Of a stretch of DNA of 64,000 nucleotides, positions 53,232 to 61,681 are shown in pieces. A program made the position numbers and the translations under genes. This stretch comes from Ulva prolifera (Eukaryota > Chlorophyta > Ulvophyceae > Ulvales > Ulvaceae). How positions within the stretch are numbered: position 1 is the first letter of the stretch; the number at the start of each line of letters is the position of its first letter. The stretch covers positions 7,569,315 through 7,633,314 of the forward strand of contig CM041199.1 in NCBI GenBank assembly GCA_023078555.1, read 5' to 3'. Under the pieces are notes generated by a model. It was not told where the DNA came from. It saw only the letters and a program-made list of their open reading frames with translations, and searched no databases.

Positions 53232-56200
53232 CTAAAGCTCCTGCAGCAGGCCATGCAACTCAACGACGGCGGCCGCGAGCCGCTCCCGGGTCACGCGCGC
53301 CTGCTCGCCAGGCACGTCCGCGTCCGCAAGCCACGTGCGGCACTGGCGCAGGATCTTGGGGCGCAGGATGCGGAAGTGTGCGCGCGTGACGTCCTCAAAG
53401 CCGGGCCGCGGGTTCCGCAGCGGCTCGACCATCGCCCACTGCACGGTGTTGAGCGAGATGACGGTGTTGAGCGCCGCTGAGGCCGCGATGCCCTCCGCCT
53501 GGTTCCGCATCTGCTCGACGTTCGGCTCGTTGAAGTACGGGTCGCCGACAAACACCATCGCCTGGATCGACACGAGCACCTGCATGCCGCTCATGCGTGT
53601 TGCAGAGGTGCGGCCGCGGGGCCCGCCTTGACCAGAACGCACGCATGCATGATGCTCATGCATGTACTGCAGTATGGGCCCGCAGAGATTGATGCCACCG
53701 GCAGGCGCACTCTGGCCCATGCGGCACTCGTCTGCCGCACGCGTAGCAGCCGCAGACAACCATCCATCCAACAAAAACCCCGCATTTGAGCACTGATGTG
53801 CACATAACATGTGTCTGGGGGGGGGGGGGGGGGGGGGGGGGTTGAAGCACCTGCCAGAGGGAGGAGGTGGCGGGGTCCCACTTCTCGGCGGCGCTGCCGT
53901 GCCACGTGCCGAGCAGGCTGAGGCAGACCTTGCCGTCGGCGTAGAGATTGGGGTTGAAGCGCACGCGGCCGCCGCCCGTCGTCTCGAGCAGCAACAGCGG
54001 CGGGATGTTCGGGTAGTCCTGGGGGAAGAGCGCGTCGAAGAAGAAGAGGCCGTACGCGTACGGCGTGTCCTCCGGACCGGTGATGCACGAACGGACCTGT
54101 AGCCACTCATGCATATCAGGACGATCTTGTTCAACGCAAGCATGCCAGTGCAACGTGTGTCGCGGGGGAGCGTGGGACATGGTGGACTGCATCTGCCGCG
54201 CTATGCTGTGCTGTGCCAGGGGGAAGAGGGAGGGGTGCGCACGACGTCCAGGCGCTCCTCATCGGAGCGCACAAACACCGACGCCGCGGGCGCGACCATC
54301 GCGTCGTCCTCCGACTGCAGGCCCCGCATTTCGCGCATCAGCCGCTTCTGCCGCTGCCGCGAGCCCTGCGCGCCGGCAGTCGCCTGGGCGCGGCGCGCGA
54401 GGTCGTACAGGAAGGCCCCGGGCGCGGTGTGGTCAAAGGTCCCGTACGCGAGTGGCGTCACCTCGGCGACGTACGCCGCATCCAGCCCCTCCGGCATGTC
54501 TGCAGTGACCCGCGTCTGCAGTGAGTGAAGGATGCACATTGGCACGAGAGCTATGCTGACACCCCTACGCCACGTTTGCCGCGCCGCGTCACACCTGCCG
54601 GGAGAAGTGCAGAGCACGCAAGGCAGTGCACGTCGGAACACACAAGCTGGCTCGGGCAGCCTGGTTGGGATCGTATGCATGGGAGCCTGGCTTGGGCGGC
54701 TGTGAGAAACATGTGCAGTCGCTGTGTCTTGACAATGCATGATGTGCTGTCCTCACAGGTACGCCACTGCAACCTGACACTGCTTTGCGTTCCAGACAAC
54801 ACGGGACACGCGGTTGCACACAGCACCACTGAATGAGATTCATGCAGCGCCACGCGGTCAGTCGCAGCGTCCACATGACTGTGTTGCAACATGTCACTGT
54901 GTGACACCAGAGGCGTTACCTGCCTCTCCGATTGTGCCACCATCACACATCACATTGCATAACACAAAAGTAGGGAAATTTTGGCCGCCGGAGCACAAAA
55001 GCAGACCACAAGGGCAGCAACCGCAGACAGGAAATCGGAGGCCGGACCCAACACGCAACTCAAGTCCACCGCAAGACACCCCCACGAGGTTCCATGCATG
55101 CGCACCGGGCAGGGGCAGCGCGAGCGCCTCGTCGACGGCGGAGGAGCCGCCCTGCACAGTCGCAGAGCGCAGTGCGAGGACCGCGGCGAGCGTGTCGTGC
55201 AGGCGCGCCGCAAAGGTGCCGGCCATCTGCATCTGCCACTCGAGGCCCTCGAGGCGCGCGCACGCCGCACGCAGCGTCGCCTCGTTGAACTCCGCCTCGC
55301 CGGCCAGCACCTGCAGCGCCATGCCTCGGGGTCAAGGGGGCCAGTGCACTGTGTATGTGTGCGGATGGAGGGCGTACTGGCGGTGGCTCCAGGCCGCATG
55401 CCTCTTCCAGCCAGCGGACATGTGTACTGGTTTACGTTGTAACGTATGACACTTCATTTGCAGAGGCTGAGGGGGACGCTGGCACACAGGCGCGCAGAGC
55501 GTTTGTAGCCCCGATTGAAGGGAAATAAAAGACAAATAGCATTGTTCATCAACTGGGCACAGCATCCAGCGGACAGTGGTTTTTAGGTGTGTTACAGAAC
55601 AGCACAGGGCAGGCAAAGACAATGAAAGAACCTCAGCCGCACACTGTGGTGAGCATCATCAGGCAGTCACACACAGTGGCAGCCAGCGCTCTGGGACGAG
55701 CGTGCGCCACACCTGAACAAACGCCTCCTCAGACGCGAGCTGAGTCAGCAGGTCCGCGAGCTGCGCGAGGACGTTGTTCGGCGCCCACTTGACGTCCGTG
55801 CACTGCGTGAGGTCGCTGCCGCCGTCGCGCGGCACGAGCAGCTGCTGCAGGAGGTGCAGGCAGAGGTGCGCGGCGTGCGCGGCGGCTGCCGGCTCCAGCA
55901 GCATGCGGCGGATCGGCGCGTGTGAGATGACGGAGCGCAGGAGGCCGAGGGTCGTCATTGCCATCGACATGAAGCCCGACGCGGTGCCGATCTGCATGGG
56001 CACACATGCCGCTGTGCATGATAGGGTTGATGCGCTGTGAGTGCGACACGGCCAGAAGGCACGCTTTCAGAGTTTCCGATGATGTGGATGGGCTGGTGGA
56101 TGGCGGTGTTCGCAGGTGGTGTGCCATGCGTCATGACAAGGCGCACCACACAATGGCATGCACGACACGAGCGCATGGAAGCATCGGGTGTCGCAACATT

Positions 56201-59200: not shown

Positions 59201-61681
59201 TCATCTAACATCGCTCCCGGGAATGTGGGCTCATGGTGCGTGTTTTCACGTAGCGATATCATGGCACCTGATGCTGGATGTTGGGTTGCACAATATCCGG
59301 CCCCAATTGTGTGACGTTTGGAGTGTGACGGTTGGAGCTCATAACAGGTTTTCTGGCAGGCAACGCAAGCTACTGACACAATCCACTGCGGGCGCGGCCA
59401 TGCCATGGTCCGTGTGCCTGTCGGATGAGAACAACGCAACCGGCTGCATGATCCAGAGGCATACAGCGCCGGTCGCGGCTCTCGGAGTTGGAAATGTCCC
59501 TGTGAATCCGGTGACGCAGTCATGCATACGTACATACGCAGCTTTGGCTGGCATCACCGGCCGGGCTGTGATACGGCCTAGTGCCATGACTGCGTGAGTG
59601 GATTTGTGTGTGAATTCCTAGCGACGGCTCGCTGCCCGGCCTCTGTCCTGTGTAACTACATACGCAGCTGTGTGGAACTTCTGCACACTGAAGCAGATGT
59701 GCACAGTGAAGCACGGGCGGCAAGCAGCGCACCGGTTGCGAGGGTACCCCGGCACCTCTGCGAGCACCGCCGGCAGGCCGCCGTTCTGCAGCTTCGACCC
59801 GACGTTCCTCCGCACGTCGTCCGGGTTGATGTACGTCGTCACACCCAGCAGCGGCGCCAGCACCGAGCCCTCCGCCCACTTCCGCGGCTTGAAAGCGACC
59901 GCCGTGCCCGACCCCACTGCCGCCCCGTTTGCCTCCACGACCTCTTGCAGAAGCATTGATGCGAGCAGGCGGAGCAGGGGCGGGTGAGCAGTGATGGCCG
60001 CGAGCGGCGCCAGCAGCGTGCCCATCGCCGTGGCGTCCGTCGCCGCAAACTCAAACGAGGCGACGTCGGCAAACGCGGCACGCAGGACGTCGCGCCAGAC
60101 GTCCGTCGCGGCTGCGGCGGAGTCCGGGGTGGGGGCGGAGAGGTCGACGGCACGCGCAAGGAGCGCCGCGGGGACGCCGCCGGCGGATAGAAGCTTCCGG
60201 AAGGCGCGGCGGTTTCGGCCGCCCTCAAAGTAGAGGTCGTCCACGACGTCGGACTGCAGCTTCTCGTACACACTGACTGCGATCCTGCATCATGGAAGGT
60301 GCGCTGCATACACTGGGGAACAGGTGTCTGAAGCACATAGGTGCAGGCAGCATGCTGCAGGTGCGATCGGAAAAAGCCCGCATGCGAGGTTGTACTTTGC
60401 ACACTCTGTGCTGACAAGGTGACTCAGCAGTGCAGCTGTGGAAGTGTCCGGAATCGAGGCGGGCAGAGCCCTCTGACGCCGAACACCGCAACGGAATGTT
60501 GACCGCAACATTCCGCTCTCCCGTGGAAGGTCATTGCCTCACAACATGCATGCATGTCAGTTACCACAGGGCCACAGCTCACATCAATGGCGAGCGCACC
60601 GGTCGAGCCAGAAGCTGACAAACTCCGGGTCAACCCCCGTCACGCCCTGCGCCCGCTGGAAAGCTGCGCACAGCCCCGAGAGCGCCTGCGAGCCGGCCAT
60701 GCGCAGCCGCGTCAGCGCGCTGCGTATCGCGCGGTTGCCGGAGTCACCCGAGACGTCGCCGCCGGCGGAGACCGGGACGTCGACGACGGAGGCGGTGGAC
60801 GCGGGCATCGGCGCGGCTGGGTCGGCGCCGATGTCTGAGAACTTGACGGAGATGCCGAGGATGGTCTGCAGGGCTGCTGCAGCCGCGCCGCGGTCTGGAG
60901 GCACCGTGGCCGCGGCAGAGGCGGGCCGGGCCGGCTGCAGGGCCACAAGAGGGATCACGTGGGTGGGTCACAAGGACATGATCACAGCATGCACGCAGCT
61001 GTAGGAGACAGAGGAATCAACTTGCGGACACCTGTCGATTCTAGCAGATAATCATGTGGCAGTTATGGACTGACTGAGCGCCGGAGGTGCATGTAACATT
61101 CGAGTCGCGGGAGACGTAGGAAATTGATGCTCGGGCAACACGCGCAGGCTCACATTGTGAACATGGAGCATGAACTGCATCCATGCAGCAGGGTATAAAC
61201 CCCACACAGCTGGACGGTGTTTGGACATGGATGGACTCGATGCAGAGTGTCATCACAGGAAAGAACGTGCCAGATTCCACGCCAAGAACTCTGTTACCCA
61301 CGCTGGAACGGGGGGTGGCGTAGGAGCTCTTGTCGCACTTCGCCGACGGTGGGGTCTGCCCTGTAGTGCCGAATTTAGAGCGGGCACGATGCCACCAGCT
61401 GCTGCACCCCCAGGTCCTTGCGCTCCTATTTGCAAGCCAAGCGCCTCAACCAGCCCCTGCAGGGTGGCGGCCGAGAGACCGCTGCCCCCAGGTCCCGCGT
61501 TCATGGGAGCAGCAGCTGCTTGCGCTGGCGCGGGTTGCGGCATTGGGGGTTGGCTTGGTGTGGCTTGGGGACCGGATGGTGGCGGGCGGGGGTGCTGTGC
61601 TGATGCAGTTGGCCCAGCCGAAGCAGCAGGTGCTGTTGAGCTCCCTGTCGCCTGTTGCGTCGATGAACCACCTGCACTTGC
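53232..61681 (-). CDS. Fusion of a Ufd2-type E4 core with a BIRC6-type E2 domain
   Basis: Exons 61298-61681, 60600-60934, 59748-60284, 58144-59194, 57071-57444, 56324-56540, 55713-55991, 55106-55310, 54243-54499, 53851-54096 and 53232-53579 agree in phase at all ten junctions, giving 1410 residues; the first exon is missing. After a Pro/Ala-rich N-terminus, residues about 130-1130 follow the Ufd2 core: DGFALGVTAVALSFVTPVLN, then ECAYLAVRAVQVGLLPSV, then KYHFDKFTMRHNVDAVLREL, then FLRALLNDLSYLMDDSFDRI. The C-terminal part is a complete UBC domain as in BIRC6: SVFVRSDEERLDV, TGPEDTPYAYG, NPNLYADGKVCLSLLGTWHG (catalytic Cys about 1271, codon 53923-53925) and VSIQAMVFVGDPYFNEPN. No U-box is visible. 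Ufd2 extends ubiquitin chains together with an E2 and Cdc48; here the E2 appears built in (inference). One donor is GC (56323). Confidence 0.93.
53817..53841. repeat. 25-nt G tract in a UBC-domain intron
   Basis: On the transcribed strand it is a C run starting about 9 nt after the GTGCTTCAA donor at 53850. It lies between the two exons that carry the catalytic core of the E2 domain. Confidence 0.95.
59544..59656 (+). mobile_element. Short retroposon-like insertion in an intron of the E4-E2 gene
   Basis: TACATACGCAGCT occurs at 59531-59543 and 59657-59669, a perfect 13-bp target duplication. The 113-bp insert shares its 3' half with the 31460 copy and ends 'tgtcctgtgtaac'. It sits in the intron between 59194 and 59748. 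Confidence 0.85.

Follow-up and report, generated by a model that had tools for sequence, protein, structure and literature searches.

A Ufd2/UBE4-type core followed by a BIRC6-type E2 domain in one predicted protein of Ulva prolifera

Ubiquitin enzymes of the Ufd2/UBE4, BIRC6 and UBE2O types are the closest described counterparts of a gene model that we analysed on the minus strand of a 64,000-nucleotide (nt) stretch of Ulva prolifera DNA (hereafter the window; contig CM041199.1 of assembly GCA_023078555.1), which predicts a protein of 1,459 amino acids (aa). According to excerpts of the published work, all yeast Ufd2p-related proteins have a core and a C-terminal U box (Marin, PMC3087547), the Ufd2 core is armadillo-like, and yeast Ufd2 binds pre-formed ubiquitin chains through N-terminal loops far from the U-box (PMC5303827). 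Likewise in excerpt, BIRC6 is described as carrying a flexible C-terminal ubiquitin-conjugating (UBC) domain after an armadillo-repeat scaffold (PMC10827748), and UBE2O as a ubiquitin-conjugating enzyme (E2) that needs neither a ubiquitin ligase (E3) nor a second catalytic cysteine to ubiquitinate (PMC12835413). The excerpted text of a Chlamydomonas U-box survey names no UFD2-type U-box protein (PMC4378952), and we draw no conclusion from it. No description of a Ufd2 core fused to an E2 was among the open-access literature matches listed, and to that extent the original prediction for this DNA, that the architecture is undescribed, stands; supplementary architecture tables (for example in PMC4327156) and eukaryotic protein databases lay outside the search, however, and the fusion may sit there unannounced.

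We found that the locus probably encodes one protein in which a Ufd2/UBE4-type core precedes a complete BIRC6-type E2, most likely a single-polypeptide E2 and ubiquitin chain-elongation factor (E4). The order of the two domains, with no U-box found, is well supported at the level of predicted sequence. In a Pfam search of the spliced protein, Ufd2P_core (PF10408) matched aa 533-1128 over profile positions 65-606 of 628 (4.1e-38, 131.7 bits versus a cut-off of 20.4) and UQ_con (PF00179) matched aa 1249-1369 (2.4e-20, 73.0 bits versus a cut-off of 27), both in one reading frame and well above their cut-offs, and neither a U-box (PF04564) nor a BIR domain was among the hits with E up to 10. The reading frame stays open across all 14 joined exons up to its single stop, the final codon (53232), and all 13 introns have GT-AG borders. 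The eleven in-phase minus-strand exons originally proposed between 61681 and 53232 are exactly exons 4-14 of this model, and the proposal that they run from a Ufd2-like core into a BIRC6-like UBC agrees with the profile matches, the splice scoring and the coding signal.

Because a spliced model could mislead, exons 5-14 were also searched singly. Five of the ten gave a relevant Pfam match: exons 7, 8, 9 and 10 each matched Ufd2P_core, independently of splicing and in colinear order, and exon 13 matched UQ_con, while exons 5, 6, 11, 12 and 14 alone matched neither family. A search of solved structures aligned the core region at aa 912-1119 with yeast Ufd2 residues 628-833 (1e-6). Structure prediction for exon 7 without an alignment was all-helical with a mean predicted local distance difference test score of 41.5, and was not used as evidence.

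By sequence, the E2 domain is BIRC6-type and not closest to UBE2O. With the C-terminal 351 aa as query against solved structures, the match to human BIRC6 (1.5e-72, 247.8 bits) spans aa 1179-1444, so that the N-terminal extension of BIRC6 is included and the alignment opens with the first residues of exon 12. Among the best 60 of 265 matched sequences, BIRC6 was followed by UBE2O (best chain 1.2e-36, 129.8 bits) and then UBE2Z (6.4e-30, 107.6 bits), with small E2s from 7.6e-14 and at most 54.7 bits. The predicted catalytic cysteine, Cys1320, lies in a conserved context and aligns with the BIRC6 cysteine.

Judged by its sequence, the algal protein is neither a proper UBE4 (U-box not found) nor a BIRC6 (BIR not found). 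It shares with Ufd2, UBE4A and UBE4B a Ufd2P_core over profile positions 65-606 of 628, but has an E2 domain in place of the C-terminal U-box. The Ufd2/UBE4 family is further characterised by chain extension on pre-ubiquitinated substrates and by binding of Cdc48 and Rad23. With BIRC6 (BRUCE) the algal protein shares a UBC with the N-terminal extension, which follows a repeat-type scaffold in both (for BIRC6, PMC10827748, in excerpt), but its scaffold is of the Ufd2 family and it has 1,459 aa as against 4,859-4,898 in full-length BIRC6 PDB chains. UBE2O is also a large protein, and the human UBE2O UBC acts without an E3 (PMC12835413, in excerpt), but its UBC similarity is far weaker (1.2e-36 versus 1.5e-72 for BIRC6), and the specific comparison concerns the UBC only.

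The absence of a U-box claimed in the original prediction was upheld by Pfam both in the protein and in ten open reading frames (ORFs), of which six surround intron 11 and the other four come from the 3' flank; a U-box hidden in these ORFs was thereby looked for and not found. An ad hoc U-box pattern, a weak test, had no match in stop-free pieces of at least 25 aa across all six reading frames of the window; shorter frame pieces, the other introns and the 3' flank beyond about 52730 were covered by this crude pattern and not by Pfam. The core match ends at yeast Ufd2 residue 833, corresponding to algal aa 1119, and exon 12 begins at aa 1177. Since the yeast U-box begins near residue 880, the E2 sits at about the place of the U-box.

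The weak link of the fusion model is intron 11, which joins the core to the E2. We ranked the joins of introns 1-12 by splice score, using for intron 11 a matrix built from the remaining 12 introns. The join of donor 55106 to acceptor 54499 ranked first of 178 in-frame stop-free joins (a narrower range held 166 scored in-frame joins), and 2 of 400 dinucleotide shuffles of the region reached its score. The model joins elsewhere ranked 1/13, 2/29, 1/3, 15/18 and 1/38 for introns 1-5, and 2/354, 2/241, 2/39, 1/16, 1/33 and 4/39 for introns 6-10 and 12. Coding signal switches at the splice sites of intron 11: held-out coding scores were +0.89 bits per codon for exon 11 and +0.85 for exon 12, compared with -0.96 for read-through after exon 11 and -0.84 for the frame before exon 12. 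The exon 11 donor has the GTGCG common to 7 of the 12 other introns. The runner-up joins, from donors 54908 and 54920 to acceptor 54499 and then from donors 55080 and 55086 to acceptor 54515, are all in frame, so a fusion would stand even if the exact junction were a different one.

Every catalytic step of the proposed activity we infer by analogy. A ubiquitin-activating enzyme (E1) would load ubiquitin onto Cys1320; the Ufd2 core, perhaps with an N-terminal UIM, would hold an already-ubiquitinated substrate; and the tethered E2 would add ubiquitin in the manner of BIRC6 and UBE2O, with no RING, U-box or HECT module needed. The suggestion in the original prediction that the protein charges itself and extends chains on core-held substrates is plausible by this analogy.

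Several observations weigh against a single fused protein. The fusion is a prediction from genomic sequence; the splice test is partly circular because its matrix derives from introns of the same model; and exon 11, searched singly, gives no significant match. Scored singly, donor 55106 ranks second of 79 and acceptor 54499 second of 38, and acceptor 54515, which breaks the frame with donor 55106, scores 10.6 versus 8.6 for 54499. Exon 12 opens with AC-ATG, which places an ATG at 54497 only two bases inside the exon, where BIRC6 homology begins, and makes a separate E2 gene conceivable; intron 10 has a TGTAA at 55596, at which a shorter transcript could end. The genome may also encode a normal U-box Ufd2 at another locus, and no relatives were found in two viral-contig scans and one genome-contig scan, although these collections are non-eukaryotic and lack of relatives there says little. 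The ATG, the stronger upstream acceptor and the intron 10 motif could together mean two adjacent same-strand genes, a Ufd2-like gene whose end lies within intron 11 or close to it, and a BIRC6-like E2 gene with its start at 54497. We do not favour this model and consider it improbable: the ORFs searched offer no U-box for such a core gene, exon 11 would still end at a donor of the shared GTGCG type, read-through to the stop after exon 11 is non-coding by codon score, few shuffles yield an equally good in-frame join, and a motif scan found no TGTAA in intron 11, a weak point for the fusion.

That mis-assembly brought two loci together here is very improbable. The join does lie on a single contig, and within intron 13 a run of C (about 53817-53841) marks difficult sequence nearby; however, the window (58.8% G+C) contains zero N, splice motifs are shared, G+C at third codon positions (GC3) is similar on either side of intron 11 (0.93 and 0.92), and repeats of at least 25 nt (14-nt seed) in 53000-62400 come to one 26-nt direct pair with neither copy in intron 11. 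If the gene is indeed fused, its product could still be something other than a chain-extending E4, with the Ufd2-derived scaffold a substrate or partner platform for a chain-starting or mono-ubiquitinating BIRC6-like E2/E3, or with the E2 working mainly with separate E3s. The E2 is nearest to those of large multidomain proteins (BIRC6 and UBE2O, at the bit scores and within the best 60 of 265 given above), UBE2O multi-monoubiquitinates as well as polyubiquitinates without an E3 (PMC12835413, in excerpt), and exons 5-6 have no detectable similarity, while yeast Ufd2 binds chains via N-terminal loops (PMC5303827, in excerpt). Against such a platform stands the retention of the core over most of its profile, and we regard it as unlikely, though to be reckoned with. 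We keep the single-polypeptide E2-E4 as the probable reading.

The N-terminus of the E4-E2 protein is uncertain. The eleven exons of the original prediction are kept, but the gene may begin upstream of them, at 62347, with three provisional exons added. A UIM-like motif (PF02809) at aa 4-17 lies in a provisional exon and falls short of significance (E 0.16, 12.3 bits versus a 21-bit cut-off). GC3 is 0.40-0.69 in exons 1-4 versus 0.86-0.97 in exons 5-14, the exon 4/5 join of the model is poor, and three TGTAA motifs, a sequence we take to be the green-algal poly(A) signal, start within 17 bases of one another in intron 2 (61941-61957). Taken together, these features mean that the UIM may belong to another transcript. 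As separate observations, the best in-frame score for the exon 4/5 join (61388-60934) comes from an alternative exon 4 donor, 61388, above the model donor, and a short separate transcript containing the UIM-like motif may end at the intron 2 cluster.

Coordinates of all features of the gene are given in Table 1. Its downstream neighbour, also on the minus strand at about 48197-50520 (outer limits by eye), is a ferredoxin-NADP reductase gene; nine PDB sequences, which we take to be root-type, match its exon at 49401-49764 (2e-42 to 1.5e-41), and leaf-type entries match it only at about 2e-23. A CA/GT dinucleotide repeat (49320-49383) adjoins an exon of this gene. Divergently upstream, on the plus strand at 63236-63754, lies a Solute_trans_a gene (1.6e-17), presumably LAZ1/TMEM184-like, which may have a promoter region in common with the E4-E2 gene. 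These two neighbours are in keeping with a eukaryote that has plastids. Pfam (thresholds 0.01 and 0.1) gave no match for 17 of 20 long ORFs, the other three lying in the reductase gene and the Solute_trans_a locus, so that most of the window, at 1-50000, carries no annotation; searches for RNA families and tRNAs returned none.

Table 1. Features of the proposed E4-E2 gene, in window coordinates.
Feature	Coordinates	Strand	Basis
Whole proposed gene, 14 exons, 1,459 aa	53232..62347	minus	In-frame joins, sole stop at end; exons 1-4 provisional
Exon 1 (provisional), aa 1-16; UIM-like motif at aa 4-17	62300..62347	minus	Gene model; Pfam UIM below cut-off
Exon 2 (provisional)	62090..62162	minus	Gene model
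Exon 3 (provisional)	61877..61923	minus	Gene model
Exon 4, low-complexity region, 3' end uncertain	61298..61681	minus	Gene model; join rank 15/18
Exon 5, N-terminal to core	60600..60934	minus	Gene model; alone no Pfam match
Exon 6, N-terminal to core	59733..60284	minus	Gene model; alone no relevant Pfam match
Exon 7, Ufd2 core start, profile 65-203	58144..59194	minus	Gene model; alone E 1.9e-5
Exon 8, Ufd2 core, profile 335-431	57071..57444	minus	Gene model; alone E 1.9e-5
Exon 9, Ufd2 core, profile 440-490	56360..56540	minus	Gene model; alone E 1.1e-7
Exon 10, Ufd2 core, profile 498-585	55713..55991	minus	Gene model; alone E 1.9e-4, 20.4 bits, exactly the cut-off
Exon 11, core end and linker, last exon ahead of E2	55106..55310	minus	Gene model, coding score; alone no significant match
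Intron 11, E4-to-E2 junction, 606 nt	54500..55105	minus	Gene model, splice and coding scores, U-box search
Exon 12, BIRC6-type N-terminal extension and start of UBC fold	54243..54499	minus	BIRC6 match, coding score; alone no Pfam match
Exon 13, UBC catalytic centre	53851..54096	minus	Alone UQ_con 4.2e-16
Codon of predicted catalytic Cys1320 (ADGKVCLSLL)	53923..53925	minus	Aligned with BIRC6 NDGKVCLSIL
Exon 14, BIRC6-type E2 C-terminal part and stop	53232..53579	minus	Gene model, BIRC6 match; alone no Pfam match
TGTAA, possible poly(A) signal, 300 nt past stop	52928..52932	minus	Motif list

It is possible, though we put it forward tentatively, that a (probably green) algal lineage swapped the U-box of its E4 for a BIRC6-type E2, producing on one polypeptide a self-charging chain extender free of RING, U-box and HECT modules that is possibly its only Ufd2. 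If so, a natural protein with an E2 fixed to the core would offer a simplified test system, and a RING-type recruiting domain would be exchangeable for the enzyme that it recruits. E3-independent E2s, BIRC6 among them, could have arisen by such an exchange.

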